Positions 40,001 through 62,478 of a stretch of DNA of 64,000 nt are shown here, piece by piece; position 1 is the first letter of the stretch, and every line of letters begins with the position of its first letter. The notes below the pieces were generated by a model. That model had not been told where the DNA came from and did not search any database. It worked only from the letters and a program-made list of their open reading frames with translations. A program made the translations under genes and the position numbers. The stretch comes from Blautia sp. (GTDB taxonomy: Bacteria; Bacillota; Clostridia; Lachnospirales; Lachnospiraceae), in the NCBI GenBank assembly GCA_017515325.1, contig JAFWGA010000019.1, positions 1 to 64,000 of the forward strand, in the 5' to 3' direction.

Positions 40001-40983
40001 AGACGGGGGATTTGAAACTGAGTAAGAAAGTAAACAGCCCGTTGGAATCTGAAAAGAATGCCTACTATTATTATAAGGTAGAATTAGAAACAAGGGAAGG
40101 AGTAGAAACTCCCGAGACAAGCATACCCGTGAGCGGTACATACACTGCAGAGATACACACTGTGTCAGGTGAAGGAGACACTAATTCTGGTCAGCTTACT
40201 CATCTTGTTGTATTTAACGAAACAGGTGAGGCAATCATACCGGTTCAGGCTGGAGAAAACTGTTATGTGGTATTGAAAGGACTTCCCGTTGATGTTCAGT
40301 ATCTGGTATCAGAGGTTGATACAGGTACACCCAGTATCAGCGGATATACGCCAACGAACGGATATCAGGCATCCGTGTTTGAAAAGTCAGGCGAAATAAC
40401 GGATACAAATCCTCAGTCTGTTATTGAAACAAGCGAAAATAGTGGGTGTATTCCCGGAGTCCAGATCACCAATACCCGGCAGAAAATTCCGGTTACGTTT
40501 TTAAAGGTGAGCTCACTAGATGCTGAAACGCCGCTTGATGGAGCAGAATTTACACTGATGCCAGTTGTAGAAAAAGGACAGACCAGTCCGGTGAACTGGG
40601 CATCAAAACAGCTTAAATCTGACAAAGGATATCTGAAGGAGGTGGTAAATGGCACGGTATCGGGAGACGGGATACTCAGTCTTCCGAAGGGTACTTATCA
40701 AATTACAGAGATAAAAGCCCCCGTTGGTTATGTACTTTCTGTTCCTTCTACATTTGTAGTGGATCCATTGAATCCGAATGGGGTTGTCTATGCAGACGGT
40801 ATTTTGGGGAATGATAATACGGTGATCCCTGGCAGTGAGTCTGTCATCCTGAAAGCAGCCAACTCTCCTGGTGTGAAGCTTCCGGCTACCGGCGGCCCAG
40901 GAAGGGGACTTTCCAATTTGCTGGGAGGTATATTGACCTTGGCTGGTTTTCTCCTGATTCTCAGGAAACGGAGAGAAACATAA
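25021..40983 (+). CDS. Giant LPXTG-anchored Cna-B-type adhesin (5,320 residues)
   Basis: A single uninterrupted 16-kb frame. Residues 1-50 form a basic start plus export segment ending TTYMLILPAITM. Residues about 56-125 and 244-302 carry His/Cys modules (H-x-H-x3-CY, with paired Cys). About 300-690 is acidic, Glu/Thr-rich and repetitive, including a 12-residue unit three times (SEAVTERTTES type, DNA about 26851-26958). From about 700 come surface-protein beta domains. About eleven Cna-B modules start with K-x-W (first near 32071, last near 37768), then five modules of the RKTG-x-L-x3-K type (38070-40010). A Gly/Asn/Thr-rich linker (about 4611-4686) interrupts them. The end has a prealbumin-like domain, LPATG (5287-5291), a hydrophobic segment and RKRRET: a sortase signal. 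Cna-B domains commonly form isopeptide bonds. No sortase gene is in the window. Confidence 0.92.
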   Translation: MKKQHDLQKMIRTLVKRIYRKKSWDRAVTTIGALIVFVTTYMLILPAITMTKKPLCGWEEHVHDDSCYQIDYGRVLDCPYEAMAHHNGVIVLHHHDANCYDEQGNLICTLLEREGHQHTLQCYNMEDKTSDLFQAGNAEGESSGLVTPGNIQNGSSDFVSIGNNENESLDFNTVGNNENESLSLFSAGSTEGGDSLTVLDNENVTNGDGLPSVESLSSPEDSDPEELFSAGEAQDEAATGIKLIPHTHSAECYDFFDNLICGKAEVVEHQHTDACFRLQETGRTLTCTLPEHTHSEACYEQAVIEVLTGDETGDTEIEPGRADVIETAILTETDSDTDGYAERGAEPGNALETEMEFAQAEPIQVIPEDDFIVVAEPISEERKSQEADGSSAEFTAEEENRQEEKSPEETVEAMETVMVPLIEVPHETMTEYSMVFVKEATEENTSEANVAKGIEAADLIATDDPLDPVKIIPVVDMAVTGNEATGEQVSEEYTETDNQTVLAFNGEEKPSPETELNPERISEEETEVTTEEVLVLMAEEETEVTTEEVFTYVVEAEPESATEAVLEPITEERPEWITETESEIATEEAPGLTTEGVFEAIREEGKELTSKAVTERTTESSSEAVTERTTESASEAVTERITESMAETLVGEEDKSAMELSDMEFRGSDYTVKISCTRDAGIPEDAFVEAEEIAPDSGEYARCLSQARSALGMDENLPLPETYARFFDIRILAEDEEGQKKEIEPAVPVQVAIRYDEPVVFIGSGSAEANIVHFDEKEDEVRVLAKEDVFTAPFEIEDPDLFVAGESMSLAKTGALEEGLEDVFVAGSEGEEEAGESYAVVFRTDSFSVYGVIYTVDFEYMDYAWSIPGGSAALLSKVLGILETGIDINDVEMVRFSDPSLVEVSPAEEYEGGYDWILLSLQPFDTEEQLTLTLNDGRTVVIEVTDDQTVSIDDTTLAQLLTRVDIYSFSTEDEEAEYIGGSQQTAVVRRGQQFDLRLVFAEDEDGLQFPDSGIMKFELPDTIDFSGNISTKPVDFTISLGRKYELKGNKATFHPAEGGTPAYITIEWNETGDPDNYKRLVASPRATITLHYTVTIDVETGEHKFTDDICVSVQEDPHYSLELEKTGEYEPENDRVKYTVTVKAIGNATDIDISDRIGKTGTASENQALKYISSNPEKESTGVSVTYSRQVDGQTVDAAGIEGDYGEENIKLEEKPEGANGFDLHIYSLKDGDTATLTYYADIDYQALRNCGSNEQEIKDLTKNAVTADGKDTEAKQSFFEMEDTLSYLSIFKFQSPDKSREDFIQEEDSGYYTVPWTIVYNPERRVDVEGTTLTDKVYVGAVNATTYDIDKPFFVKVYESGDIVETEYVVKDEEGNVIGHGTKPTGFTPGSLVAEYTQNWVAAGSTDEGVIYQDFILNGTHDEDGKTIDQHSNWSWTIPDKNKPMIGTETPVYLDPEKHYTYVITYYTKTEIDQIINGYIGNVVTDTSNNNTYEGEIEFPGTTTRPELTVDKEWVENQVIQNNTITDVYSKWTITFDRRSYALDRCVVEDTLPHGQNSENTSTKYVDSYQGEVVNPSEANGEQVGGYSVDGLREGERCVPEYIPDSGRVIFRFYTNYQGVNDSQNKEGLLGYADDTDKSVTITFWTKNNPNWMTASQMNEAPIEHTNVARLVQNAQEATDADVEVPKRPGILKTADPQPAGVDQSTLPLNMRVNPEPVGYWQYKASESEEGNGVPVPVFRYTLTLTGIDALTFDSNDQIVITDVFDNKLRYLKKSDLENLLANGKYSGKAIPSNDEKLVQTAPIPETEIVRAVDPIAYTSLENGNGNNQLTFTINKGSDTWDGVKYEISYYLTVDETKIIDLAKNVTLSNSSVTTDSPYSNTARWSVEGLEVTGTQPVTVDYKPVSKDISYNSATETAFCTIEVNPYKLKINDGKFYKLTDKYANIAVDFATVKIETEPKCDRNIEWTFHNNEGTFWLPDETYVKITYEAWPVGQRGKTYDIWNEAQILDRYTKRDTEKITLSVDHEGSAASYSVRVYKFEDDNMEKPLKNAVFQLFTESASHIVPVKYQTTIEDNSATNNDPAWADLYKEDWTGAPVTTHYPTPDNHKVGDNVYFITGKDGIAEIMLSQHRDGVALKKGVRYYLREVVTPPGHVSENIDWMFTIADNDDFPNYVYSDGSLLQIANASAKPSVLIRKTIDDRTHSLTDDQINGITFVIRGTQSNNPDSPAVYYKEASFGSFMPVDVPDDSIEGTHREYWMSVPSGHLPEGYYTVTEERESAQFPDTVLTPSIDLSRTTDAGKANANLNFVEGDPFAFHFQVTAENKDSIAIQADYTNIYVDEPVQLTIKKKWGDEEPGNGTVRFAIYRDGVKYGDISLPITNGGTKSWETTVTGLPRHVTEGEQAGREIEWTVAEIGATYQKTEKNGNDGDPAVTEVTVETQYMTEHFSTTAKVEEKAAQTTPAEEEIPIITGGQAVAVPDDGTITFTNILKSTVAVKVEKKWKNAADEEETSHDMNDVVYFDLYRTTNPLPESLTRENLEVLTDLQIVLENVPLTYEEGKGWQFDALMEKFSGESSFHYIALERSVAGYQDGYKINTDSDGNQTITITNQPSGGQGSLEITKTVTGYTGTDKQFKFTLWNSGKYLDSNGTLRTPTAENPAHLFSISTDQTLNIPNVKPGVYTLTEILDGAEVDHHSLNVSIATPVTNASGTQTSETTTGNTAVLVVTDSIQTQATIHNDYVSEKTSFKFGKLWIGPNERDTTTLIWPDDTSINVKIQRRKKAETRKAGDVDATWSETYTITKTGTQTVTVNGVEETRDILTIKDKNGNVTDALRWLANDYNHYTFELENLDKYAGDNATEWVYYATEESYTAPGGVAYEQMYGRVTGIVALVTNWEDAAGANEVQTGAEGEAQLDNITECAINRLKLAPAITIPVKKIVSGLSRIIDYTQFEFQLYKDNKPVYLDSNDEPVMDNAAAKQDVSGNPVNWVIKAGADGTLVFNVEKLLDLNNTLKWQEVDSSGEFLGEFRGVYHFSIAEKEPENKITGMSYFKGKLPVAFEVTYKWTTGELRVNMRIDGHLADTWTNDQSQTDVAHAQTAAVAIENKYNPETVTVQADKTWVDNNDQDGRRRTVQFKVHAFITIPEGESLTVDGKTYNGKIISSEEDATPGEGTPSEENTATDEGTYELEKVWRVWLGDNGNWVRFGETQMPCTIEAKGTNASDTWSTNPKLLPKYFEGYEITYTVEEDLEGSGLSNYYEKIRDETDKSQPGKVIYSATNRHIPEATDISVTKTWVDSNDPRNTKPSEATVVLKADGEIFRIENDSENQPSGQQTLNAGNSQTYTWQGLPVFKDGEKIVYTVEEENVPMGYHCVVSDPTHTDKAGTTGIHYNSDTDYVDSFSMINTYEPVDITVTKNWEDDSDRDGIRRDNNINSVNVKLTADGIDNLSEILATEQFLLAADQVVSDQASSTSQTMTVSNSWTRTWRNLPKYYNNKEILYKVVEDIAAQEYATGGSINNDTVDTNDLGYTVSYSTNTAIGENGYNYTVTNSRPLDETSVSLTKIWDDHYNQDGKRPDVADYVKKFVKFEAVLESGSDSKTQLYIEQNACGVGTYHLFTSADTQDATTEFFHNGQPATVTLVGTNTAGNSNEYTITFSNLPKNKQGGKADPVVYTVEETDDAGNTLSVNGAHLAVNADNSSAAYKDYAIETVMTQAPAGSWSVKNKYTPETVTVTATKVWDTPGDNTNSSDAGKAALRSQVKFKLHVYDGNEDITGRLTADTTNGTGGSDSLKTVWDGYSYTLPSEKTLGSDDTVTWVNLPKYLPGQVGRLLTYKVEETATPDGYRIDMDGMSADMQKPVGDDYQVTIKNIYEETEIIATKQWDDDGNRDNARPAVTLKLQRKIGSGTFMDMTSEQLWAAAELTIAGTAALDAVSATISSNPASDTQNVVWSHLPAWIGNEKVTYNVVEVTPVEGYTVTQDGDPNEVEVEPEPAADSALRYRACETIINTRTVTTVQGFSFIKHWDDANNQDGKRPDPESFILKNVRVFMEKANIDGNEYSNVVLVPFKDDTSGEIYLVYHYTESGTEKTKQVTVQTVEGQIPATVSWVGSNASGFSINNNNTPENASDDTTTITVDGHTFDYNIYAVHFHNMPVNYLNGQNIIYTMKEVQDTAELTPSTDQWLFSKCEDDDVTAEQTHRYTFGDAEVSNNNEYDISKVKYTENSEEKEKPYEFEATNKHTPDLINISIKKEWDTPDNSALSQPQEVKVMLYADGIPVDDTIVTLSSSSDWSHTWKENPAYHKYEAGKVGDLIEYTVREEGVPLGYIEKPSTVTTADPNQILAFEIENQYKTGSLKIEKTVDSDVAGDLTHEFHFRVKLVGINDNTFSGRNFNSDNITIRRKLKGTEEDGTELDTKFDSNGEVTFTLTHNQYVEIKNLPIDMTYEVEEYGLDDAENAFLTNFNRPEKQTGTVTQTPAELSFINERKTGELELTKTVSNTNKIPGDNDILFDFTVTLTAPSDSSQNLTDPALVYSNNRIQYQIGNEEPQFLTSNSATISLKHGQTVKITGLPVGTSYTIVESANNSFERIFTPANGETNDVNGEAVGTIGIVSDTIDGMNNDNSTSDETENPSGNETEDANGGGSNYGSDTEPNNEGGGGTDGANEGGTSSTNDDVSVSAGGGETDLVIATNTRKTGSLKLNKIVVSPVLKEREDNYTFTVVLAKDGNPITDADYQAKITDATRQDQTIDLSTLGTTGSVSVPVTVKGNQSATITNLPVDVTYTIEEKDTPENFTSNPDNATNQIAVDSKDESQHMVPGRIATFTNTRKTGTLTVEKTVNSNVNADKTREFHFKVEVASVGEHGALVDNLKYTINTPGEDGNTTSEEGSFTNNVAEFTLKNGQTMLVSGIPTDLHYKVTEYAIDSTEDDYLKKFNTSWGKTGDAEEIQLANTGTQSDGNEASGEETGADSQSTVHAQKTLQLTGQSAALSCTNTRKTGDLKLSKKVNSPLESEKNAYYYYKVELETREGVETPETSIPVSGTYTAEIHTVSGEGDTNSGQLTHLVVFNETGEAIIPVQAGENCYVVLKGLPVDVQYLVSEVDTGTPSISGYTPTNGYQASVFEKSGEITDTNPQSVIETSENSGCIPGVQITNTRQKIPVTFLKVSSLDAETPLDGAEFTLMPVVEKGQTSPVNWASKQLKSDKGYLKEVVNGTVSGDGILSLPKGTYQITEIKAPVGYVLSVPSTFVVDPLNPNGVVYADGILGNDNTVIPGSESVILKAANSPGVKLPATGGPGRGLSNLLGGILTLAGFLLILRKRRET

Positions 40984-48392: not shown

Positions 48393-51017
48393 TTACATTT
48401 CCAGCCGCATCAGCTTCAACAGCTCCTGATTGCCCAGTTCTGTGATCCATGCTTCTCCACCGGAGCCGATCACGTTTTCCGCCAGTTCCTTTTTGCTGTT
48501 GATCATGACATCTATTTTTTCTTCTATCGTTTTTTCCGAAACCAGTTTGTGAACAATGACATTTTTATTCTGCCCGATCCGGTAGGCCCGGTCGGTAGCC
48601 TGATTCTCCACAGCCGGATTCCACCAGCGGTCAAAATGGATGACATGGTTGGCGGCAGTCAGATTCAGCCCTGTGCCGCCTGCCTTTACCGAAAGGATCA
48701 TAAAAGGATAATACTCTTTTCCGTTAAACAGATCGGTAAGCTCGGTTCGTTTTTTGACCGGTGTGCCTCCGTGCAGAACCAGTCCCTTTCTGCCGAAGAT
48801 TGTTTCCAGATAGCGTTCAAGGGCGTCAATGATCTCGCGGTACTGGGTAAAGACGAGAACCCTTTCCCGCTTTTCATAAATGGTACTGCATATGTCCCTG
48901 AGAAGGGAGAATTTACCGCTTTCATCCGGGGCAAAGGCTGTCTGTCCCAGATATTGGTCAGGATGATTGCAGATCTGCTTAAGCTTTGTGATTGTCGCCA
49001 GAATCAGCCCCCGTCTTTGCATCCCGTCAAGAGCTTCAAGCTGATATTCGAGGTTGTCTACCACCTGATGATAAAGAGCGATCTGTTTTTTGCTTAGCTG
49101 GACATAATCCAGCTGTTCCATCTTGTCCGGCAGATCGGCAATGATGCGCTTGTCGGTTTTCAGGCGGCGAAGGATAAAGGGAGATACCATATTCTTCAGC
49201 TTTTGGTAGCCTTCGGTATTCCGTTCCAGCTCCTTGGCGAATTTTCTGAATTCCGTGGATGTGCCGAGGAGTCCCTTGTTGAGGAAATCAAACAGGGACC
49301 ACAGGTTGGCGAGCTCATTTTCGATCGGAGTTCCTGTCATAGCGATCCTGTTGCCGGCGTGGAGCTTTTTGATGGTTCGGGTCTGCAGGGTACCGGGATT
49401 TTTGATCGCCTGAGCCTCATCTAGGATGACACAGGTCCATTCGGTTTCCTGCAGCTGTTTCAGCCTGCCGACCATACCGTATGTGGTGATGGTAAGGAAG
49501 GTGGGTCTGGTTTTCAGAAGGTCTGCCAGCTGGGTTGAAGGGAGGCCGTGCAGGATCAGACAGGGAAGGGAGGGGGTGAATTTTTCGGCTTCCTTTTCCC
49601 AGTTTCCCAGAAGGGAAGCAGGAACAATCAAGAGTATCCTCTCCTGGGGGTCTTTATCATATCTGGCCTGTAGATAGGTCAGAACCTGCAGGGTTTTCCC
49701 CAGACCCATATCGTCAGCCAGACAGGCGCCGAAGCCGAGCTGGGACATCGTTTCCAGCCAGGAAAAGCCGGTTTCCTGATAGGGACGGAGAGTGGCCTTT
49801 ACTCCGCTGGGAATGCTGCTTTGCTCCATGGCAGATGGCTGACGAAGCCGGTAGAGAAGCTCGCTCAACCATTTTCCGTTTGTGATCAGGGGACCCACAT
49901 CAAGATCGACTTTCGATGCGGCACCAAGACCGGTTTCCATACGCAAGGCATCTCTCAGAGAAAGAGATCCCTTGAAGGCTTCCATTTGCTTCAGGAGCTC
50001 TTGCAGACGGGCATGATCCACCTCGACCCATTTCCCCTTGAGCAGGGCCAGGCCTTCAGACTGGCCGAGAAGCATCTGAATGTCTTCTTCGGTCAGCATG
50101 ACACCGTCCACAACAAGAGAAGGACGCATGGAGAGGATTCCGTCAAAGCCCAGGATAGATGGTTTATCCTCTCCCAGAGTAACGTTCAGTGCGACAGAGG
50201 ATGCCTGGCGCTTCCACCAGGCGGGGACCCGGCAGAGGATCCCTGTTTTTTCTATTTCAGGAACTGCCTTCAGGATGACATAGGCTTCCCTGGAGGTAAG
50301 CCGCAGGGGATGAAAAAGCTCGCCGCTTTCCACAAATTCGCCGATCAGAGCACAGGCTTCTGAGGCTTTATTCAGGCAGGAAAGCAAGGAAAGCAGCTTT
50401 TCTCTTTGTCCTTTATATTCTTCCAGGGCGTAGGACAAGGGCATATGCCGGACTGTGCCGTCAGGCAGCTTTGTCGCGTATGTGGCGAGAAAAGCAAAGG
50501 GAAAATCCTCCTCTTTGCTTTCCACAAGGTGGAAAAAGACTCGTTCCGGGACATGAAGCGCCTGGCTTTTTTCCGCCAGGAAGAGGGAAACACTGCCCTT
50601 ATATTCCCGGATGCTCCTGCAGAAAACCCGATTCAGTCGTTCAAACAGCAAGAGAAGCCAGGCTTCATCGATATATTCCGTCCCCAACCCGAAGGGAACG
50701 GAATATAAAAGCCTTCTGGCTGTATCCGGAAGAAGCTCAACCTTTGTCTGCTCTCTGGTCACCTCCAGACCGGGCAGACTGGTCAGGGCCTGGATGAATT
50801 CAACACTCAACAGGTAGAGCCAGCCAAAGGTGGGGGATGCCAGCTGGGGTTTTTCTTCAAAACCTAGAGCAAATAAAGCCTGATCGGGATCCTCGTCAAA
50901 GGCTTTTTTCCAGGAAAGGATCCATGGCTCGTCCTGTGGGCACAGGGCTTCGACCAGAAATGAATCTGGGGTGAAAATGGCATTTAAAGTAGGTAGTGGA
51001 TGAGTTGCTGTTTCCAT
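48393..51017 (-). CDS. SNF2-family DNA-dependent ATPase/helicase
   Basis: 874 residues. The N-terminal half (about 1-410) is the bacterial SNF2-associated region. It is followed by helicase motifs: I LADDMGLGKTLQ, II LDEAQAIKNPG (DEAQ rather than DEAH), III MTGTPIENEL, IV/V LSVKAGGTGLNLTAA, VI ATDRAYRIGQ. These proteins translocate on DNA and remodel DNA-protein complexes. ATG 51015-51017 is preceded by two tandem copies of a 16-bp block containing AAGAGGGAACT. The ORF could be extended 20 codons upstream through that repeat, but the extension has no ribosome site. It is the first gene of an operon with the SWIM gene. Confidence 0.9.
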   Translation of the reverse strand: METATHPLPTLNAIFTPDSFLVEALCPQDEPWILSWKKAFDEDPDQALFALGFEEKPQLASPTFGWLYLLSVEFIQALTSLPGLEVTREQTKVELLPDTARRLLYSVPFGLGTEYIDEAWLLLLFERLNRVFCRSIREYKGSVSLFLAEKSQALHVPERVFFHLVESKEEDFPFAFLATYATKLPDGTVRHMPLSYALEEYKGQREKLLSLLSCLNKASEACALIGEFVESGELFHPLRLTSREAYVILKAVPEIEKTGILCRVPAWWKRQASSVALNVTLGEDKPSILGFDGILSMRPSLVVDGVMLTEEDIQMLLGQSEGLALLKGKWVEVDHARLQELLKQMEAFKGSLSLRDALRMETGLGAASKVDLDVGPLITNGKWLSELLYRLRQPSAMEQSSIPSGVKATLRPYQETGFSWLETMSQLGFGACLADDMGLGKTLQVLTYLQARYDKDPQERILLIVPASLLGNWEKEAEKFTPSLPCLILHGLPSTQLADLLKTRPTFLTITTYGMVGRLKQLQETEWTCVILDEAQAIKNPGTLQTRTIKKLHAGNRIAMTGTPIENELANLWSLFDFLNKGLLGTSTEFRKFAKELERNTEGYQKLKNMVSPFILRRLKTDKRIIADLPDKMEQLDYVQLSKKQIALYHQVVDNLEYQLEALDGMQRRGLILATITKLKQICNHPDQYLGQTAFAPDESGKFSLLRDICSTIYEKRERVLVFTQYREIIDALERYLETIFGRKGLVLHGGTPVKKRTELTDLFNGKEYYPFMILSVKAGGTGLNLTAANHVIHFDRWWNPAVENQATDRAYRIGQNKNVIVHKLVSEKTIEEKIDVMINSKKELAENVIGSGGEAWITELGNQELLKLMRLEM

Positions 51018-51049
51018 ATATAGTTCCCTCTTAATATAGTTCCCTCTTA
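51018..51049 (-). repeat. Tandemly duplicated Shine-Dalgarno block before the SNF2 gene
   Basis: The 16-bp sequence TAAGAGGGAACTATAT (minus strand) is present twice with no gap (51034-51049 and 51018-51033). The copy next to ATG 51017 serves as the ribosome site. The upstream copy has no in-frame ATG directly behind it. Confidence 0.8.
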
Positions 51050-51144
51050 GTGCATGCTGCCGCAGGCTAATCGTCACATTTGCTTCCGACTTTATCTATG
51101 CGTCCGTGCGCACAGTAAACCAGGCATCTGGTTCGTTTCCTAAT

Positions 51145-51311: not shown

Positions 51312-52433
51312 ATGGTAAGAATGGCCATTATCGGTACGGGAAATATGGGTGGTAAATATGCCAGAATGATCTGGGAGGGAAGGATTCCGGATATGTGTCT
51401 GGCTGGGGTGACAATAAGAAGAAAGGAGGAACAGGAGGATTTCTGCAGACTGACGGATAACCAGGTAAAAGTGTACGGGAGTGAAGACGAGCTTTATCAG
51501 CACGCTGACAGCTTTGACGCTGTCCTGATCGCAACCCCGCATAAGCTGCATCCCGCTATGGCTGTCAGGGCTATCGAGCATGGCAAGCATTTGCTGGTGG
51601 AAAAGCCGATCGGGATTTCTCTCGGGCAGTGCAGGCCTATGCTGGAGAAGGCTGCCGCATCATCGTTGGTTTTTTCCGTTATGTTCCATCAGCGGGCATA
51701 CGAAAAATTCCGCAGGATTAAGGAACTCCTGGACGGAGGAACGATCGGCCGGATCTACCGGGCTCAGATGGAAAACAGCCGATATTTTCGCACAGTCAGG
51801 TATCACCATTCCGGTTCCTGGCGCAGCAGCTGGACGGGAGAGGGAGGAGGAGCCCTGATCAATCAGGGACAGCATATCCTGGACATCTGGCAGTGGCTTT
51901 TGGGCAGGCCTTTGAGCGTTTCAGCCAGGATACATTTTGGGAAATACAATGATTTCCTGGTTGACGATGAGGCAAGCCTGTATATGGAATATCCGAATCA
52001 GAGCTGTGGCGTTTTTATCCTGACGACCGGGGAAGGGACCTGGACAGAAAGGCTTGAAATAGCCGGTTCCAAGGGGACGATCCTTTTGGATAAGGATACG
52101 CTCACATTGTATCAGTACAGCCAGGATCTGGATGAATACAGGAGCCAGGCTTTGGTACACTCGAGAGAAGAGCTGCAGGAGACGGTGAGTGTATGGGAAC
52201 TGCCGGTGAAGCAGGAACCCTATGAGATGATGCTGGAGAATTTTGCGGCTGCCATTGAGAGGGGGGAACCCCTTTTGGTCAGGGGAGAAGAGGCAGCTGG
52301 AGCCTTGGAGCTGATGAACGCGGCTTATCTTTCTGCCTGGAAGGGAAAGGAGATCTCTCTTCCCGTCGATCCAGACGAATATGAGACAGAGCTTGAAAAG
52401 CACCAGAGGGAGGAGGAAAAAGACAGGATATGA
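51312..52433 (+). CDS. Gfo/Idh/MocA-family oxidoreductase
   Basis: 373 residues. It has a Rossmann start MAIIGTGNMGGKYA, IATPHKLHP, and the intact EKP motif in LLVEKPIGIS (catalytic lysine). In the C-terminal domain are GGGALINQGQHILDIWQW, with the conserved His/Asp region of the family. It probably oxidises or reduces a sugar, inositol or related compound with NAD(P). ATG 51312 follows GGGGGAAAAGG. The stop codon overlaps the peptidase T start by 4 nt (ATGA), so translation is coupled. A possible promoter TTGACT/TATAGG lies at 51215-51241, but its 15-bp spacing is poor. Confidence 0.88.
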   Translation: MVRMAIIGTGNMGGKYARMIWEGRIPDMCLAGVTIRRKEEQEDFCRLTDNQVKVYGSEDELYQHADSFDAVLIATPHKLHPAMAVRAIEHGKHLLVEKPIGISLGQCRPMLEKAAASSLVFSVMFHQRAYEKFRRIKELLDGGTIGRIYRAQMENSRYFRTVRYHHSGSWRSSWTGEGGGALINQGQHILDIWQWLLGRPLSVSARIHFGKYNDFLVDDEASLYMEYPNQSCGVFILTTGEGTWTERLEIAGSKGTILLDKDTLTLYQYSQDLDEYRSQALVHSREELQETVSVWELPVKQEPYEMMLENFAAAIERGEPLLVRGEEAAGALELMNAAYLSAWKGKEISLPVDPDEYETELEKHQREEEKDRI

Positions 52434-53647
52434 GAGCCTATGAGCGTTTGATTCATTATGCCAGGATAGATACGACCAGTGATGAGAGTAAGGAGGACAC
52501 GGTCCCCTCCACGCCAGGACAGTTCGACCTTGCCAGGAGCTTGGCCGAGGAGATGCAGGCCCTGGGCATTTCCGAGGTGAGAGTGGATGATAAGTGCTAT
52601 GTCTATGGATGCATCCCGGCGACAGAGGGCAGGGAGGATGCCGTGGGGCTGGGCTTTATTGCTCATCTTGATACGGCACCGGATTTTTGCGGGAAGAATG
52701 TCGCTCCCCAGATTCACGAGAATTATGACGGGGAGGATCTGGTGCTGGGGGACAGCGGACTTTTACTTCGTACCAGTCAGTTCCCGCATCTGAAGAAGAT
52801 GAAGGGAAAGACCCTGATCACAACGGACGGCAGAACCCTGTTGGGAGCAGATGACAAAGCCGGCATTGCTGAGATCATGACGGCAGCTGAACAGCTGATC
52901 TCAAGCGGAGAGCCACATGGCAGGGTCTGCCTGTGTTTTTCTCCGGATGAGGAGATTGGGGGAGGAGCAAAGGATCTGGACATTCCCGGCTTTGGGGCTG
53001 TATATGCCTATACCGTTGACGGGGGAGCGGAGAATGAGATTGAATATGAGAACTTTAATGCTGCCAGCGCAGAATTTGAAATCCACGGCTTTAACATTCA
53101 TCCCGGTGATGCCAAGGACAGGATGATCAATGCGGCTCTGCTGGCCTGCAGGATCAATGGCATGCTGCCGGAGGCTGAGACGCCCAGGGATACACAGGAT
53201 TATGAAGGCTTTTTTCATCTGACGCAGATGGAGGGAGACGTGGAGAAAGCGGTTTTGCGCTATATCGTCAGAGATCACAGCGCCGGGCATTTTGAAGCCA
53301 GACTGGAAACGCTTCGGCATATTGAAAAGATCATGAACAGCCGATGGGGGGAAGGCACGGTAAAGCTGACCATCAGGCAGCAGTACCGGAATATGAAGGA
53401 GAAAATCGAGCCCTGTATGCATCTGATAGAAAATGCAAAAAGGGTGATCCGGGATCTGGGAATGGAACCTGTCACCAGCCCGGTGAGAGGGGGTACGGAT
53501 GGTGCCCAGTTATCCTACCGGGAGCTTCCCTGCCCCAATCTCGGCACCGGAGGATATGCTTTCCATGGCCCCTATGAGCATATCACCGCCGAAGGGATGG
53601 ATTTTGCCGTAGAGGTGATTCTGGGACTGATTCGGGCTTACAGCTAA
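52430..53647 (+). CDS. pepT: Peptidase T (tripeptide aminopeptidase)
   Basis: 405 residues, typical for M20B peptidase T, which removes the N-terminal residue from tripeptides in the cytoplasm. Signatures are YARIDTTSDE near the start, the first metal ligand and catalytic Asp in GFIAHLDTAPD, LLGADDKAGIAEIM, the catalytic Glu-Glu in SPDEEIGGGA, YTVDGG, and the C-terminal RGGTDGAQLSYRELPCPNLG and metal-binding His in YAFHGPYEH. Its start overlaps the upstream oxidoreductase by 4 nt. Confidence 0.93.
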   Translation: MRAYERLIHYARIDTTSDESKEDTVPSTPGQFDLARSLAEEMQALGISEVRVDDKCYVYGCIPATEGREDAVGLGFIAHLDTAPDFCGKNVAPQIHENYDGEDLVLGDSGLLLRTSQFPHLKKMKGKTLITTDGRTLLGADDKAGIAEIMTAAEQLISSGEPHGRVCLCFSPDEEIGGGAKDLDIPGFGAVYAYTVDGGAENEIEYENFNAASAEFEIHGFNIHPGDAKDRMINAALLACRINGMLPEAETPRDTQDYEGFFHLTQMEGDVEKAVLRYIVRDHSAGHFEARLETLRHIEKIMNSRWGEGTVKLTIRQQYRNMKEKIEPCMHLIENAKRVIRDLGMEPVTSPVRGGTDGAQLSYRELPCPNLGTGGYAFHGPYEHITAEGMDFAVEVILGLIRAYS

Positions 53648-53848: not shown

Positions 53849-56719
53849 TCAGATATCCTCCAGCTTTGTCAGCAGGAATTCTTCCTCGTCCTGATTCAGG
53901 GCAGTACCACTGATCATCTTGCATGATACGTGAAAGGATTTTTCTGCGTAGACCAGCTCGGAAGGGGGGAAGGTGTCATAGACTTCCTGGATTTTCAAAA
54001 GTGCCTTCCGGACAACTTCTTCTTCAACATTTCCCTTACAGCTTCTCTGATCACAGATGCAGCCGAGAGAGATGAAAATGCAGACCAGCTCCTCTTTGGA
54101 AACCACTCTGGTGTCCAAAGCCTCGCACAGCAGATTCACGGTCGTCTCGATCTCCTTTGCGGAGGCTTTGCAGGCACCGTCGTTGCGCATGGCCAGACCG
54201 ATGGCATGGGCACTGTTCTGGATGTAGCTCTTTTTCCCCTTTTTCAGGAGCCGGACATCCTCCTGCAGCCTGCTGCGGATCCAGCGAAGCTCTGTCCGGC
54301 TGTTGCCGTGGGTATAAAGGCAGGCATGTAAATATCTGCTCTGAGAGTGGAGTATATTCAGCCGGGAAATGTCATCCTCGGTACCGCAAATGCTTAAGGT
54401 ATGGATGGCATTGATATTTGTGCTGACCTTCAATCCCGTACCCTGCTCCCAATTGAGCAAAGCCGAACCCAGCTGATCCAGGCAGATCCGGGCGAGCCGG
54501 CGTTTTTGAGCCTCGGTCCAGGTTGTTCCCAGCCTTCTGGCAATAACAAAGAGACGCGACCTTGCCTCCTCAGGGAGATTTTTCCCCAGAGCATCCAGAA
54601 CATACAGAGCGAAATCCTTCTTATTCTGGGCATTGCAAATGACGTTCTGGGCTTCGGCAATCCGTTTGCTCAGTGCGGTTTTCTGATATTTGGACTTGGC
54701 GCCGTGAAGGTTGTGGCACAACTGCAGAAAATTGTTAATCTCTCCCTTGGGATCCAGAACCGTGCCGGGCGGTGGAAGAACGGCAGGCCCCTTGGCTGTC
54801 CTGGTCTCATTATCGATGGAGATGACGGCCTGACCCTTTTCGATTTTTTCCTTCCCATCGACATCCTTGCAGGTCCAGGCATTCATGGTAAGAACCTTGC
54901 TGATGCCCATATTGATGGTAAAGACGACATAGGCACCGGAGACATAGTTATTGTTGAAGGTAATGTTTCCGCTGGAAATAGTACGGTAGGTATTATCCAG
55001 GTTCCGGCTCTTGATGGAGACCACAATCCGGTTCTGCCTGGGCTCGATTCGAAAGCCCTTCATGAGATCCGATTCGTAGGGCAGCTTGGAACCGGTGGGA
55101 ATCAGTTCGTGGACGCCCCCGTTTTTTACACCAAGATAGAGGCTGTCATTCAGGATACGGCTGCCCCATTCAATATGCAGGCCATGGTCTGACGCAGCAG
55201 AAGGCGGGACGTGATCTGTCAGGGACTCAGGTGAAGTTTTTTGCCCTGCCGATGCAGCAGGCTCCTGTTTTCCCTCCCCGATCAGCTTCATATTATCCTG
55301 CAGCTCCTCGTACTTTCTGAGATAGTAGTGATAAACCGCAGCTCCGCGTGCTACAGACAGATCCGGATCCAGTGCCACGATCGGATCAAATCCGAAGAAG
55401 CGGCGGACACGGTCTGTAACCATGTAGAATTTCGACATTCCGCCGTTCAGAATGACGGCGTCAACCTTAAAGTCGTCTGTCCCGAACTTTAAGGAAGCCT
55501 TGTGAAGAACGTCAAGAATAGGATAAATGATATTTCTGGTATTTTCTACCGATTCGATTTTTTTATAATCTTCATACGAAAATTCCTCACCCATAAATTT
55601 TTTCAGGATCGTCTCCACCTCTTCCTTGGTAAAGGAATCGTCGTAGGCGTAGCCTGTACTGTTAATGTTTCCGCCCACGTCAAAGCTGGGTTCCTCATCG
55701 TCCCAGCCGGAGCCTTCATCGTCCCAGCCGGAGCCTGTCCCGCTGTTCCAGCCGGACATATCTGAGCACTGTTCACTGACATCGAGCTTGAGATTTTCCG
55801 CGTAATTTCTTAACTGGGAAAATACTGTATCCTTCCTTTCCCGCAGGATCCGGACAACCTCCGGATGACTGGCATATTGTTTGAGATAACGGTCGAACAT
55901 CACCTTGGCGATCTCTTCATCGAAATCGTCTCCCCCCAGAAGGGTATAACGGTTCGTCGCAATCTCATCTACCTTCAGAATATCCTCCTTGCCCTCCCTG
56001 CGCTGCAGTTCATGCAGGGTAATGTCCAGGGTACCTCCACCCAGGTCAAATACCAGCACGAGCTTACGGCTGGACAGATCCAGGATGCGGTCGGAAATTT
56101 CTCCATTGCGGATCTGGTTGACCAGATCATAAATAACGGCATTGGGCTCAGACAAGAGGACAGGCCTTTCGCTGCCATCCTCATTGTATACCCTGATGCC
56201 GGCCTGTTCTGCGGCATCTCTTGTCGCCCTGCACATGGCAGAGTCAAAATTCGCCGGTACTGTGATGACTGCTTCTGTGATCTGGCAACGATAGGCCATG
56301 GATACACCGCGAAGCATATGCTCAATGATTCTTGCAGAGATGCTGGCAGGGGTTTTGTCAGGCACGCCTTCCGAAAACCCCTCCGCCAGAGGTTTTCCCA
56401 TCTGACTTTTGATGGATTTGGCCACCTCATGGGGGCGAAGGGGATACTGCATCTTGGCAAAATCCCCTACAACAGGTTCATAATTTCTCTCCGAACGATA
56501 GTATACGAAGGAGGGAAGGGTAGGTTTCCTCGCCGTCGTCAGACGGACATCGCCGGTGGGCGCGTTATACATGTCCACCGGTCTGGGAAGCTCTACGATC
56601 TTGCTGATAATCCTTCCGCCGGAGCTGACATTGATGGTCGCAGCGGCAGAGTTGGTCGTACCAAGATCCATTCCCAGACATAGGTCGTTGTGAACAGCCA
56701 GTTTTTTTTCATTCATCAT
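53849..56719 (-). CDS. Large divergent Hsp70-family protein
   Basis: 956 residues against about 620 for DnaK. The actin-like ATPase domain (about 14-475) has LGMDLGTTNSA, VITVPANF, VFDLGGGTLDI, GGDDFDEEI and ILNGGMSKF. An acidic, Gly/Trp-rich insertion with the unit GSGWDDE twice (about 325-345) interrupts it. A linker (about 485-515) leads to a beta-rich part resembling the substrate-binding domain (about 516-640), then about 300 residues of helices without close similarity to the DnaK lid. It is likely an ATP-driven chaperone with a specialised client. I chose ATG 56719, which follows AAAGGAGGAATAA; ATG 56743 overlaps this site. It is the last gene of the operon and is preceded by two leader ORFs created by tandem duplication. 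The terminus lacks the EEVD-like DnaK tail. Confidence 0.88.
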   Translation of the reverse strand: MMNEKKLAVHNDLCLGMDLGTTNSAAATINVSSGGRIISKIVELPRPVDMYNAPTGDVRLTTARKPTLPSFVYYRSERNYEPVVGDFAKMQYPLRPHEVAKSIKSQMGKPLAEGFSEGVPDKTPASISARIIEHMLRGVSMAYRCQITEAVITVPANFDSAMCRATRDAAEQAGIRVYNEDGSERPVLLSEPNAVIYDLVNQIRNGEISDRILDLSSRKLVLVFDLGGGTLDITLHELQRREGKEDILKVDEIATNRYTLLGGDDFDEEIAKVMFDRYLKQYASHPEVVRILRERKDTVFSQLRNYAENLKLDVSEQCSDMSGWNSGTGSGWDDEGSGWDDEEPSFDVGGNINSTGYAYDDSFTKEEVETILKKFMGEEFSYEDYKKIESVENTRNIIYPILDVLHKASLKFGTDDFKVDAVILNGGMSKFYMVTDRVRRFFGFDPIVALDPDLSVARGAAVYHYYLRKYEELQDNMKLIGEGKQEPAASAGQKTSPESLTDHVPPSAASDHGLHIEWGSRILNDSLYLGVKNGGVHELIPTGSKLPYESDLMKGFRIEPRQNRIVVSIKSRNLDNTYRTISSGNITFNNNYVSGAYVVFTINMGISKVLTMNAWTCKDVDGKEKIEKGQAVISIDNETRTAKGPAVLPPPGTVLDPKGEINNFLQLCHNLHGAKSKYQKTALSKRIAEAQNVICNAQNKKDFALYVLDALGKNLPEEARSRLFVIARRLGTTWTEAQKRRLARICLDQLGSALLNWEQGTGLKVSTNINAIHTLSICGTEDDISRLNILHSQSRYLHACLYTHGNSRTELRWIRSRLQEDVRLLKKGKKSYIQNSAHAIGLAMRNDGACKASAKEIETTVNLLCEALDTRVVSKEELVCIFISLGCICDQRSCKGNVEEEVVRKALLKIQEVYDTFPPSELVYAEKSFHVSCKMISGTALNQDEEEFLLTKLEDI

Positions 56720-56720
56720 T

Positions 56721-56777
56721 TTATTCCTCCTTTTCTCTGACATGGGTTGTTGTAAACAGCCGGTTTTTGAGGTTCAT
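56721..56777 (-). CDS. Leader ORF 2 of hsp70 (18 residues)
   Basis: ATG 56775-56777 follows AAAGGAGGAATGATAGG. It encodes MNLKNRLFTTTHVREKEE and stops with TAA one base before the hsp70 ATG. Its last codons (AAG GAG GAA) are the hsp70 ribosome site itself, the classic layout of translational coupling. It arose by duplication of the hsp70 start, after which the frame drifted. Whether the peptide has a role is unknown. Confidence 0.5.
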   Translation of the reverse strand: MNLKNRLFTTTHVREKEE

Positions 56778-56792
56778 CCTATCATTCCTCCT

Positions 56793-56837
56793 TTATTCTG
56801 ACATAGGTGGTTGTGAACAGTTGTTTTTTGGGTTCAT
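56793..56837 (-). CDS. Leader ORF 1 of hsp70 (14 residues)
   Basis: ATG 56835-56837 lies 4 nt after the stop codon of the GrpE-like gene and uses the AAAGGAGG at that gene's end. It encodes MNPKNNCSQPPMSE and ends 15 nt before leader ORF 2, providing a continuous chain of starts and stops from the GrpE-like gene to hsp70. Confidence 0.45.
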   Translation of the reverse strand: MNPKNNCSQPPMSE

Positions 56838-56841
56838 CTTA

Positions 56842-57936
56842 TCATTCCTCCTTTACCTTGGGGCGGGAAATCTGAATCTCCTTATCTCTGTAGATCCAAC
56901 CCGGGGAAAGAACACGGATTCTCTTTGAATCCTCGGGGGACAGAAAAGGCGTCCCTTCATAGTTACAGAATTCCACATCGGCAGCCTTTACTTCAAGCAC
57001 GGCATTCAGCTTCATCATGGGATCGATGTGGCTGTCCTTGACAAAACGGATCAGCTTTGATGTCATGATCAGGATTCCGTTGATCTCCAGGGGGAGCTGG
57101 TAGCCGCTTTTGCGCAGCTGGTCGGCGCCCTTTCTCACTTCCAGAAGCTCATCCAGGATACAACCGTAGCGCTCGGAATTCAGACGTGCGAAGAAGTCTG
57201 TCATCTCCTTGATCTTGCTTTCCATGAGCTGTTCGTCGAATTCATCCTGCAGCTCCTGCAGCATGAGGTTGGTTCTGTCCAGGGTGGCTTCCAGCTGTTC
57301 GATCCTGGCAATGGCCTGCTCATAAGTGATGCGCCTGGAAGCCTTTTTTTCATTCTGAGCTCCCCTCTGCCTGGGAGACCGCTGTGGTGCAAATCCATAG
57401 ACATGGCAGATGGCATCCGAAATGTCATCCACCAGATATTTGCCCAGAGTATCTCCCATGCCGAAGACAAGGTCAGCGTCATCCTGCCGATTGAGCTCGG
57501 GATATCTCTCGAAAAGCATAATAGCCAGGATACGCCCCTGAGAACGGTGACGGCGGGTATTCCGGGGCTGAACCGCTTTGCGGATGGTCTCGTAGGCCTC
57601 GAAGGCGGCCTTATCGCCGGACAGGACTTTCGGAAAGAGGACTGCCGCGGAATCTGCCCAGACCAGAAGCTCTTTTCTTTCGACAGGATTCGCCACTTTT
57701 CTGCTGCGGAAAACCTGAATCACATGATTACCGTTCAGATCGTAGCCGTATCTTTCGTTCAGCCGTACCGAACAGTCATTGGGACCCATGTCATAGTTTT
57801 CACAGAGGACAGCGAAAACCCTGTTCTCCAGAAGGATATCATCGCGAATCGTCTGGAGACTTCCTGTTTTCCTCAGAACAGCAGCGTGAATCTCGTCAAG
57901 TACTTCTGTCATTCTGGGATTGGCTTCAATACTCAT
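56842..57936 (-). CDS. GrpE-like protein with an N-terminal extension
   Basis: 364 residues. Residues 1-190 are a mainly helical domain I do not recognise (possible DNA/RNA or protein-binding role). About 203-245 is a strong coiled coil (ARIEQLEATLDRTNLMLQEL). The C-terminal about 110 residues end with KRIRVLSPGWIYRDKEIQIS followed by RPKV. This resembles the beta-wing of GrpE, whose family end reads roughly VL-x-x-G-Y/W-x-x-x-D-R-x-I/L-R-P-A. Together with the hsp70 gene next door this makes nucleotide exchange the most likely job. GGAGGTTAGCC precedes ATG 57934-57936. The upstream gene ends 14 bp earlier. The GrpE assignment is inference; a plain coiled-coil partner is possible. Confidence 0.65.
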   Translation of the reverse strand: MSIEANPRMTEVLDEIHAAVLRKTGSLQTIRDDILLENRVFAVLCENYDMGPNDCSVRLNERYGYDLNGNHVIQVFRSRKVANPVERKELLVWADSAAVLFPKVLSGDKAAFEAYETIRKAVQPRNTRRHRSQGRILAIMLFERYPELNRQDDADLVFGMGDTLGKYLVDDISDAICHVYGFAPQRSPRQRGAQNEKKASRRITYEQAIARIEQLEATLDRTNLMLQELQDEFDEQLMESKIKEMTDFFARLNSERYGCILDELLEVRKGADQLRKSGYQLPLEINGILIMTSKLIRFVKDSHIDPMMKLNAVLEVKAADVEFCNYEGTPFLSPEDSKRIRVLSPGWIYRDKEIQISRPKVKEE

Positions 57937-57950
57937 GGCTAACCTCCTGT

Positions 57951-59102
57951 TTAAATCAGTTGATAGATCTCTTTGCTTTCTGCAAAAATGAATTGGGTGC
58001 GACAGTCTCCATCGAGCATAAGCTCCTGCTCGATGGTGGGAAGGCCTGGTATATCAGATGGAGCACAGTGTACGATCACGGTCTGGCGGGGATTGATCCG
58101 GCGGATCAACTCCGAAAGATCCCGGTAATCCGCGTGAAGGGTGAAGTCGATCCGAACCTGGCGGTAAAATCCTTCAAGCTCCGGAATCTGGCGGTCGGTA
58201 AGGAAGACATGGGGAGTGCCAGGGGGCTGTGCCCCCATCACAAGACCTGATCCGGACAGGATAGGGATTCCCAGGCGTTCCATTTTTTCCGCCACCTGAA
58301 GAATGCCGGAATCGACATAGATGGGGATGTGGTTATGATTATACTGGTTGAGCAGTTTGATGAATTCAATGCCTTTGCTCAGCTGCGACATCTGACACAA
58401 AACGCTGCGGTGGTATCTGTGTACCATGTCAAGAACCTTCTGTGCTTTTTGTTCAATCATCCCTGCCGGTCTTTGGTAATGGGGATGCCTGGCGTGAAGC
58501 CCGCAAAGGATCAGGGTATCGATCTCGTCCTTTGGAATGAGACAGGCCTGGGCGAGAGGGGTTTCCTCCAGCGAAATGTCCCCGGTATAGAGGATCCGGC
58601 GTTTTCCAAAGGTGAAGAGGGTCATCATGGCACCCGGGATATGTCCTGCGGGATAAAAGTCCACCTGGTAGGAGCCAAAGGAAAAGGGGTGGAGGAAGCT
58701 GACAGTGGTGATTCTTTCCAACAGACTCTGCGTGAGAAGACGCTGGGCTTCCCCTTTCTGGGAGAAGAGGTAACGGTTTCTGTCATAGAGCTGGTATTCG
58801 GAAAGGATAGCTGTAGGGGCTGTCATGTAAACATCTGAATGGGGAGCGGAATGCATCAGAAAAGGAAGTGCCCCTACATGGTCTGCATGGGCGTGAGAAA
58901 TATAAATCTGCTGGATCTGGTTCAGGCTTTGAAGAAAAGGAGAGGTGAGAAGCGAATAGAAATCCGGTCGGTAGACCGCTCCTTCTTTTTGACCGGTCCC
59001 GGCATCCAGGATGATATTGTGCTGTCCCAGACGGAGATAGTAGCAGCTGGCTCCGATCTCCTGAGCTCCTCCCAAAGCCATGAAATAAACATGTTCTGTC
59101 AT
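57951..59102 (-). CDS. Beta-CASP metallo-beta-lactamase-fold nuclease-like protein
   Basis: 383 residues. Metal ligands are SHAHADH (residues 69-75), AGHIPGA (His154), YTGDIS (Asp175) and the beta-CASP motifs LHADYRDL (His323) and VHCAPSD (His345). This is the arrangement of RNA- and DNA-processing enzymes such as CPSF-73 and RNase J relatives. The start ALGGAQEIGASCYYL matches the family's GGA-x-E-V/I-G pattern. It should be a cytoplasmic nuclease or RNA-processing enzyme. It lacks the C-terminal KH or dimerisation domains of long homologues. ATG follows AAGGAGGCC, with its own promoter about 20-50 bp upstream. It is the first gene of the operon with the GrpE-like and hsp70 genes. Confidence 0.85.
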   Translation of the reverse strand: MTEHVYFMALGGAQEIGASCYYLRLGQHNIILDAGTGQKEGAVYRPDFYSLLTSPFLQSLNQIQQIYISHAHADHVGALPFLMHSAPHSDVYMTAPTAILSEYQLYDRNRYLFSQKGEAQRLLTQSLLERITTVSFLHPFSFGSYQVDFYPAGHIPGAMMTLFTFGKRRILYTGDISLEETPLAQACLIPKDEIDTLILCGLHARHPHYQRPAGMIEQKAQKVLDMVHRYHRSVLCQMSQLSKGIEFIKLLNQYNHNHIPIYVDSGILQVAEKMERLGIPILSGSGLVMGAQPPGTPHVFLTDRQIPELEGFYRQVRIDFTLHADYRDLSELIRRINPRQTVIVHCAPSDIPGLPTIEQELMLDGDCRTQFIFAESKEIYQLI

Positions 59103-59124: not shown

Positions 59125-59153
59125 ACTATATCACAATTTTCATAAAACGTAAA
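59125..59153 (-). promoter_or_regulatory. Promoter of the beta-CASP/GrpE-like/Hsp70 operon
   Basis: On the minus strand TTTACG (59153-59148), a 17-bp spacer and TATAGT (59130-59125) give four and five matches of six. A second, overlapping TATAGT lies at 59125-59120. No CIRCE-type TTAGCACTC-N9-GAGTGCTAA element, the usual HrcA site of dnaK operons, is present. Confidence 0.5.
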
Positions 59154-60756: not shown

Positions 60757-62478
60757 TCATGACGAAATCATGTCGGCGGGAACGTTTACCCTCCCCTTAT
60801 CCAATTCGGATTGGATAAGAGTTTCAAATTCCTCTTTGGGAAGGGGGCGGGAAAAATAGAAGCCCTGGACAATGTCACAGGAGGCTTCTCTCAAAAGCTT
60901 GATCTGATTTTGGGTTTCTGCTCCTTCCGCCACAACAGGAACACCCAGATATTTGGCGATATCTAAGATAAGCTCCACCATGCGCAGATCCTTTGTGTTT
61001 GCTTCTATATTTTTGATGAATTTCATGTCCAGCTTCAGTACATCGATTGGCATGAGAGAGATCATATTCAGAGAGGAATATCCGGTTCCGAAGTCATCCA
61101 TTTCTATTTCAAATCCATATTCTCTCAGCTTTTCTATCACGCTGATCATCCGCTGGGCATCATCCGTACAAATGGATTCAGTGACCTCAAGCTTGAGATC
61201 CTTGGGAGAAAGGCCGCTTTCTTCTATCACGCCAAAGAGTGTTTTTTCCAGATCCGGATTGAGGATATCACTGCGGGAGAGATTTACCGATACGGGAAGG
61301 GTAAAGCCGAATTTGTCCCGCCAGGCAGCAATCTGTCTGCCGGCCTGTCTCCAGACGAAGGTATCCACAATATAGATCAGGCCTTTTTCTTCGAACAGGG
61401 GCACAAAATCCGCCGGTGGGATCATACCAAATTCCGGGTGCTTCCATCGCACCAGTGCCTCTGCACTGTTTAGCCTGGGGGGATCACACTGAATGTCGTA
61501 TTTTGGCTGATAATACACCTGGAACTGATGGCTTTCCACCGCATGATTCAGCTCGTTGATTAACTGTGTTTCATACCTCTCGCGAAGACGGATGGCTTCG
61601 TTGTATACAAGCAGATGGGTATGGTAGTTTCCCCTGATGAGATTGCAGGCTACCCTGGCCCGGTCAAACATCTGGGTCGGTGTGACTTCCTCCATCCACG
61701 GCATAACGCCCATTCGAAGCTGGATATTGTTGTGGCCGGAAATATGGTTGACTCTGTTCTGGATCCGTTCAAGGATGCTGTTGTAATCCTCACAGTGCTG
61801 ACAATAGATCGCGAAGTAATCGGCTTCAAACCGGGAGGCGATACCTTGGGTCTGCTCCAGAAAAATACGAATCTCTTCCCCGATCTCCCGGAGGAGCCGG
61901 TTTCCGAACTCCCATCCGTTCAGTTCGTTGAGAGAATGAAAGCTGTTTATATTCAGGACAAAAGCATCCATATGCCATTCCGGATGATAACGGTAAATCT
62001 GATCTGCATAATAGTAGAAAAAGCCTCGGTTGTAGAGCTGAGTCAGAGAATCGGTCTGGGTCTCGTTGATCAGCTGTCTGCCTTCGCAGAGCGCGACAAC
62101 GCGGTTTACCCTGGCAAGGATGATTTCATGTACATCAAAGGGCTTGGGAATAAAATCTGCGGCGCCCATATTAAGGGCGATAAGCTCTGCTTCTTTGTCC
62201 GAGGTCAGCACGATAACGGGGATATGCTTTAACTGCTCATTGTCACGGAGATATTCCAGGACATCATAGCCGTTCATGACCGGCATATTCAGGTCGAGCA
62301 GGATGACGGCTAAACGATCCAGATTGTCGTGGGCAGCAGTCAAAGCCTCTTTACCATTGCAGGCATAGATCACATCATAGCTATCCTCAAGGATAACCCC
62401 AAGCACATCTCGATTGATTTCCTGATCGTCTACGATCAAGGCCAGCCGGGCAAGCTGGATCTGTTTTGCCTGGATCAT
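60757..62478 (-). CDS. Response regulator with degenerate GGDEF and intact EAL domains
   Basis: 573 residues. The receiver domain (about 10-130) has ALIVDDQEINR, phospho-acceptor Asp62 in ILLDLNMP, VLTSD and the FIPKPFD lysine. A GGDEF-type domain follows (about 140-275), but the signature is SRFEADYF, so it cannot make c-di-GMP; it may bind GTP. The EAL domain (about 305-560) retains SAEALVRW, SVNLSRSDI, LEVTES, EMDDFGTGYSSL and AEGAETQ, so c-di-GMP phosphodiesterase activity is expected. ATG 62476-62478 follows AGGAGAAAAGAG. A LexA-like palindrome lies just upstream. No cognate histidine kinase is adjacent. Confidence 0.9.
   Translation of the reverse strand: MIQAKQIQLARLALIVDDQEINRDVLGVILEDSYDVIYACNGKEALTAAHDNLDRLAVILLDLNMPVMNGYDVLEYLRDNEQLKHIPVIVLTSDKEAELIALNMGAADFIPKPFDVHEIILARVNRVVALCEGRQLINETQTDSLTQLYNRGFFYYYADQIYRYHPEWHMDAFVLNINSFHSLNELNGWEFGNRLLREIGEEIRIFLEQTQGIASRFEADYFAIYCQHCEDYNSILERIQNRVNHISGHNNIQLRMGVMPWMEEVTPTQMFDRARVACNLIRGNYHTHLLVYNEAIRLRERYETQLINELNHAVESHQFQVYYQPKYDIQCDPPRLNSAEALVRWKHPEFGMIPPADFVPLFEEKGLIYIVDTFVWRQAGRQIAAWRDKFGFTLPVSVNLSRSDILNPDLEKTLFGVIEESGLSPKDLKLEVTESICTDDAQRMISVIEKLREYGFEIEMDDFGTGYSSLNMISLMPIDVLKLDMKFIKNIEANTKDLRMVELILDIAKYLGVPVVAEGAETQNQIKLLREASCDIVQGFYFSRPLPKEEFETLIQSELDKGRVNVPADMISS

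Follow-up and report, generated by a model that had tools for sequence, protein, structure and literature searches.

The cassette and its gene junctions

A group of three adjacent open reading frames (ORFs) was analysed in a 64-kb stretch of Blautia sp. DNA (assembly GCA_017515325.1, contig JAFWGA010000019.1, positions 1–64,000 of the forward strand), referred to here as the window. All three lie on the minus strand within window positions 53849–59102 and specify a beta-CASP-type metallo-beta-lactamase (MBL), a GrpE-like protein (MID) and a long Hsp70 (HSP), with features as listed in Table 1. Together they form a real and conserved cassette that is rare and is carried by Lachnospiraceae-type bacteria. 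MBL and MID are separated by 14 bp. The ORF-finder span of HSP is 53849–56743, but translation likely begins at ATG 56719 (or 56716), behind AAAGGAGG, rather than at 56743, and a start at 56719 gives a MID–HSP spacing of 122 bp. These values bear out an earlier note on this DNA, which described three minus-strand genes with gaps of 14 and about 120 bp.

Within the MID–HSP gap, a 61-bp stretch of the HSP start region is repeated in tandem to give three copies, a feature absent from the earlier note, and these create two in-line mini-ORFs (14 and 18 codons) ahead of HSP. Among 14 relatives in which this junction was measured, the two genes share 1 or 4 bases in nine, lie 0–1 bases apart in two and 74–166 bases apart in three; a gap of the kind seen in the window is missing from 11 of the 14. 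As MID and HSP mostly overlap or abut in relatives, the repeat looks like a local duplication, and it could tune HSP translation. A single promoter had also been proposed for the three genes. This part of the earlier note is weak because the region has 10 promoter-like sites (5.0 with a standard deviation of 2.6 in shuffles), and the site before MBL cannot be told from chance matches. Its view that this is not the housekeeping dnaK locus was upheld, as dnaK is found on a separate contig with grpE- and dnaJ-like genes adjoining, the 64-kb window has no CIRCE element even when as many as 3 mismatches are allowed, and the J-domain (HPD) pattern has no match in 221 window ORFs, with the housekeeping DnaJ recovered as a control. 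The same pattern was absent from 186 ORFs of 22 related loci.

Table 1. Features of the cassette and of a related Hsp70 gene (window positions unless a locus is given).
Feature	Position	Strand	Description
MBL	57951..59102	minus	beta-CASP-type metallo-beta-lactamase, 383 amino acids (aa)
MBL residues			D33, HxHxDH (70–75), H154, D175, motif-B H323, motif-C H345; motif-A position 200 is Cys
MID	56842..57936	minus	GrpE-like protein, 364 aa
MID N-terminal domain	57397..57918	minus	all-helical, residues 7–180; no Pfam family above cut-off
MID GrpE-like core	56848..57324	minus	residues 205–363; 48-residue helix, two shorter helices, small beta domain
HSP	53849..56719	minus	long Hsp70, 956 aa counted from ATG 56719
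HSP nucleotide-binding domain	55280..56689	minus	residues ~11–480; longer than that of DnaK around residues 300–400
HSP beta substrate-binding domain	54818..55141	minus	residues 527–634; DVTP linker motif absent before domain
HSP C-terminal helical solenoid	53855..54751	minus	residues 657–955; replaces usual lid
Tandem repeat	56677..56856	minus	three 61-bp copies, HSP ribosome-binding and start region
Promoter-like site	59125..59153	minus	TTTACG-17-TATAGT, upstream of MBL; 9/12 matches; TG before second hexamer
PIN-carrying Hsp70	L010:446-2776 and L113:16713-19043		genome G885

Linkage, distribution and gene fusions

A contig scan with MID found 18 loci (48–56% identity to MID), and the order MBL–MID–HSP on one strand is kept in all of them, a co-occurrence far above chance. 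Contig ends cut MBL in L011 and HSP in L006 and L021, and L006 and L007 are almost identical (98.3% over 5,729 bases). The earlier note had set linkage across genomes beforehand as a check, and had named as contrary outcomes genes that are unlinked in most genomes or a middle protein with no GrpE fold. What was found is linkage in the same order in the 18 MID loci and in six added ones (L024, where HSP runs off the contig, and L037–L041), and a GrpE-type fold in MID (see below). The order is constant across protein identities of about 21–58%.

The spread of the cassette is patchy. In a family sample of 397 genomes there are nine MID carriers: the window genome, three genomes (G270, G339 and G113) with the same DNA as loci L012, L014 and L018 (100%), one genome with a new locus of the window's clade (G282, L037), and the sources of four divergent loci (L038–L041), two of which (L038 and L039) come from one genus. 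A fifth divergent locus, L024, belongs to a genome of the same genus as the window. A 98-genome scan included 60 genomes of that genus, and MID is present in two of the 60, with a different clade of the cassette in each. The window genome is the only carrier in a phylum sample of 398 genomes. In two of the five divergent loci, MBL and MID are a single protein (809 aa in L024 and 794 aa in L041), both domains of which are matched by Pfam, with the GrpE match in L024 falling under the cut-off.

Searches were also made in the reverse direction. An HSP-tail profile matched eight of the 397 family genomes, seven of them MID carriers; two divergent carriers were missed, and the eighth match (G120) is weak (E = 6.5e-4, 245-aa frame). 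The MBL profile (threshold E = 1e-20) matched 12, namely all nine MID carriers and three genomes with a different, longer beta-CASP protein (G148, G359 and G121), in which motif A is of the ESTYG or ETTYG type in G148 and G359 and the frame is interrupted in G121. On these results, no MBL or HSP tail of the cassette type stands out clearly as an orphan among the 397 family genomes, the G120 tail being the one weak match. Beta-CASP-type proteins with motif A ESTYG or ETTYG are encoded at L099:1257-4031 (924 aa) and L100:8953-11505 (850 aa), and no Hsp70-like neighbour of either gene was recognised by eye. Protein distances across 16 loci are correlated between MID and HSP (0.95), MID and MBL (0.79) and MBL and HSP (0.80), with 0 of 1000 permutations as high for each pair; such correlations can be obtained from shared descent within one operon alone. 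No cassette relatives were present in phage (50,697) or plasmid (72,556) records, and a pattern scan of IMG/VR viral contigs gave 30 stretches that matched a pattern, none of which is a relative. The possibility that the cassette is mobile-element or phage cargo was rejected on these results.

The three proteins and known relatives

The solved chains that best match MBL are those of CPSF73, INTS11 and Ysh1, enzymes that cleave RNA, followed by aCPSF1/FttA, type VII Cas14, TTHA0252 and RNase J, with Artemis, Apollo and a lactonase ranked lower. The beta-CASP motifs are known by letters, and motif A contributes to the active site. D33, H70, H72, D74, H75, H154, D175, H323 and H345 are invariant in 24/24 MBLs from two clades. 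The motif-A position aligns with the Glu of CPSF73 IESTYG, and motif B with CPSF73 FSAHTD, and only about 120 residues separate the two. The motif-A acid is absent from every one of the 24 MBLs, with Cys in 19 and Asn in 5. The earlier claim of intact catalytic motifs thus stands for the Hsp70 ATPase residues (17/17; see below) and for the metal ligands and motifs B and C of MBL (24/24), and falls for the motif-A acid (0/24). Because the metal site is kept and one active-site acid is lost, MBL is probably active but altered, and it would most likely be a ribonuclease (RNase). CPSF73, INTS11, aCPSF1/FttA, RNase J and the type VII Cas14 share with MBL the metallo-beta-lactamase fold, the metal ligands, motifs B and C and an RMMBL-type end. 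In contrast to these nucleases, MBL lacks the motif-A acid, has a short cap, and is encoded in an operon with Hsp70 and GrpE; it is also shorter (383 aa, against at least 431 aa for the listed CPSF73, INTS11, aCPSF1, RNase J and Cas14 chains).

Several lines of evidence indicate that MID is a GrpE homologue, as the earlier note had supposed. Among four divergent orthologues, the Pfam GrpE model gives scores of 29.5 and 26.6 bits, which pass the cut-off of 25.8, and 23.8 and 21.6, which fail; the window MID itself has no match to this model. A profile of the divergent clade scores 47.9 against GrpE (best of 60 column shuffles, 22.0) and one of the combined clades 34.9 (shuffle maximum 21.3), while the window clade alone gives no signal by hhalign. 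For the GrpE comparison set, a frame was obtained by pattern in 24 of 30 loci. Fold comparison placed GrpE chains at ranks 1–5 and 8, with middling Z, and MID shows the GrpE layout of a long helix, short helices and a C-terminal beta domain.

HSP matches the Pfam HSP70 family at 113 bits. Its ATPase residues D18, K104, E191, D225 and T230, identified by alignment to the DnaK of the same genome, are invariant in 17/17 HSPs. Strands of the substrate domain span residues 527–634 in the model, to which DnaK chains align as far as residue 636. The DVTP linker is present in the DnaK of the same genome and absent from 21/21 HSPs, the interdomain linker is variable, and a solenoid of about 300 residues stands in place of the helical lid, so the extra helical C-terminus of about this length described in the earlier note is seen in the model. 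Like the housekeeping DnaK–GrpE pair (hrcA-grpE-dnaK-dnaJ), the cassette joins an Hsp70 ATPase to an adjoining gene for a GrpE-type exchange factor; it differs from that pair in the solenoid tail, the missing linker, the extra helical domain of MID, the nuclease-type partner, and the lack of a J-protein pattern or CIRCE in its window.

A literature search that took in few subscription papers and no bioRxiv preprints returned no description of an Hsp70–GrpE–beta-CASP cassette, but related Hsp70–GrpE and Hsp70–HEAT systems are already in print. As far as the consulted text of PMC7159879 goes, GAP1-N2 GTPase-centred conflict systems of firmicutes and actinobacteria include accessory HSP70 and GrpE, with the chaperones proposed as threshold devices. 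At the core of those systems are a GTPase, GAP1 and an FNIII protein, together with DnaJ or TPR, whereas the cassette has three genes, one for a beta-CASP enzyme, and the words beta-lactamase and MBL are absent from the main text of that paper (PMC7159879). GTPase, GAP1 and FNIII partners were not among the 25 of 113 Pfam families listed for 68 proteins flanking the cassette loci, although no search was aimed at them. The CnuD protein of type III CoCoNuTs, in the consulted portion of PMC11090510, combines Hsp70 nucleotide-binding and substrate-binding domains with HEAT-like repeats and is proposed to target RNA. CoCoNuTs are built on a McrB-like GTPase. The cassette resembles them in the Hsp70 and HEAT-like layout, and its HSP retains the ATPase residues, whereas the Walker A of CnuD is described there as degenerate (PMC11090510). 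That text contains neither GrpE nor beta-CASP, and the metallo-beta-lactamase fold is mentioned a single time, where a figure legend deals with gene associations. Likewise, CnuB or a McrB-like GTPase was not among the 25 of 113 families listed for the flanking proteins, again with no search aimed at CnuB/McrB.

Proposed mechanism, alternatives and surroundings

We see about an even chance that the operon specifies a dedicated machine of Hsp70 and exchange factor by which a nuclease is gated or delivered. The basis of this reading is homology, conserved linkage, fusion, the metal site and the ATPase residues, from which we infer complex formation, exchange activity, an RNA substrate and gating. 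The chaperone probably acts directly with the enzyme, because the genes are always together where found and two of the proteins are fused in some relatives. The MBL–MID fusions suggest that the physical link runs from exchange factor to enzyme and, as MID is fused to MBL in two genomes and its gene overlaps that of HSP in 9 of 14 loci, MID may be the physical bridge. Under such a scheme, HSP would be an Hsp70 driven by ATP, with the beta substrate domain as the binding site for a ligand or client and the HEAT/ARM-like solenoid as a scaffold. MID would be its private GrpE-type nucleotide exchange factor, tied to MBL by the extra N-terminal helical domain, as suggested by the natural fusions, and MBL would be a metallo-hydrolase resembling CPSF73 and Integrator-11, its beta-CASP cap being small. 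A bound client would set the ATP state of HSP, which MID would reset, and the Hsp70 ATP cycle would switch, deliver or restrain the nuclease on a target marked by a protein, such as a ribonucleoprotein that is stalled, aggregated or foreign. In its most specific form, an Hsp70-gated RNase complex with the exchange factor built into the nuclease, in which the ATP cycle is set by the protein that Hsp70 has bound as its target, and in turn positions or switches the CPSF73-like nuclease on RNA associated with that protein, the proposal is tentative, and possible rather than probable. It would represent a chaperone-guided RNase in ribonucleoprotein quality control or conflict, parallel to an Hsp70 with a PIN domain found in one genome.

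The latter gene lies at L010 (G885), directly upstream of MBL, and encodes a 776-aa Hsp70 in which a PIN RNase-type domain (E = 1.5e-15) sits between Hsp70 profile positions 69 and 94, an insertion in the ATPase domain. Although seen at one locus only, it points the same way as the proposed link between Hsp70 and RNase. Hsp70s are usually viewed as folding aids, and if one steers a nuclease together with a private GrpE, protein recognition would set RNA cleavage and so link protein and RNA quality control or immunity. Direct tests of the idea are feasible, as the three-gene cassette is compact, natural fusions exist, and there are conserved metal and ATP sites to mutate.

Other explanations account for parts of the same evidence. 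HSP and MID may serve to fold or metal-load MBL, whose reaction then need be neither chaperone-gated nor on nucleic acid. Strict co-occurrence and fusion suit a client–chaperone unit equally well, and the change of motif A in 24/24 MBLs means that the substrate may differ from those of known beta-CASP RNases; however, other, longer beta-CASP proteins occur in three sampled family genomes in which MID was not found, and fusion of the exchange factor, rather than the chaperone, to the client would be odd for a folding aid. Such a maturation role is unlikely. Lower still is the likelihood that MBL is a non-catalytic or non-nuclease member of its family and acts as a nucleic-acid-binding platform for the chaperone. 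CPSF100 and INTS9 are members of this kind, and the missing motif-A acid and the short distance between motifs A and B would agree with it, but pseudo-enzymes usually lose metal ligands, whereas MBLs of both clades keep all seven ligands, D33 and the motif-B His without exception. That three unrelated accessory genes were merely transferred together is very improbable: their sporadic distribution resembles that of transferred DNA, but a constant order over such a range of identities and the lack of a clear orphan speak against it, and the two fusions already largely refute it.

The patchy spread (9 of 397 family genomes; two of 60 in the genus) is consistent with an accessory function in conflict or stress. 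It also favours an anti-phage or conflict module in which the chaperone sets a threshold and the nuclease acts as effector, as has been proposed for other Hsp70 systems, an explanation we consider doubtful. On its side are the conflict systems with Hsp70–GrpE (PMC7159879) and Hsp70–HEAT (PMC11090510) outlined in the consulted parts of those papers, and the position of L010 in an Hsp70-rich island, with three further Hsp70 genes downstream, a SNF2 helicase matching DpdE, BrxH and HmaA models, and a 1107-aa protein that matches TmtA in part. Against this, PADLOC matched HSP only to PDC-M61B (E = 0.008) and gave no match for MBL or MID, on which account a known defence family was rejected; a divergent HSP matches SspB (E = 9e-4). 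Relatives are lacking in the phage, plasmid and viral collections. Flanking genes vary between loci, and Pfam families of the 68 flanking proteins (from 110 of at least 150 aa) are mostly housekeeping among the 25 of 113 listed, although PADLOC flagged a restriction enzyme, methyltransferases, a RecD-like protein and other models in the flanks (among the 25 of 47 matches listed). Overall, no direct evidence of defence by the cassette was found in PADLOC, the phage, plasmid and viral records, or the flanks.

Other loci carry related or neighbouring genes. In L072, L073, L074 and L075, from other Clostridia, at least three divergent Hsp70-like genes (by eye) surround a second GrpE-like gene (279–645 aa), and this is a different kind of accessory Hsp70–GrpE locus. 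Downstream of the cassette copy in L018 (5969-7584) are a gene for a D12-class DNA adenine methyltransferase and, overlapping it, a neighbour that no Pfam family matches; the two are possibly a restriction pair. In the window, the neighbouring genes specify a GFO/IDH/MocA oxidoreductase, an M20 peptidase (52430-53647, present in 42 of 60 genus genomes), an SMP-30/gluconolactonase, an EAL/GGDEF regulator (60757-62478, present in 17 of 60) and a SNF2 helicase. No clean empty site was seen at the four peptidase loci inspected, where none of the other 11 window genes tested adjoined the peptidase. The SNF2-type helicase gene (SNF2-rel_dom, DUF3670; 48393-51077) lies about 2.8 kb from HSP, and the plus strand of the window carries one ORF of 5320 aa at 25021-40983.

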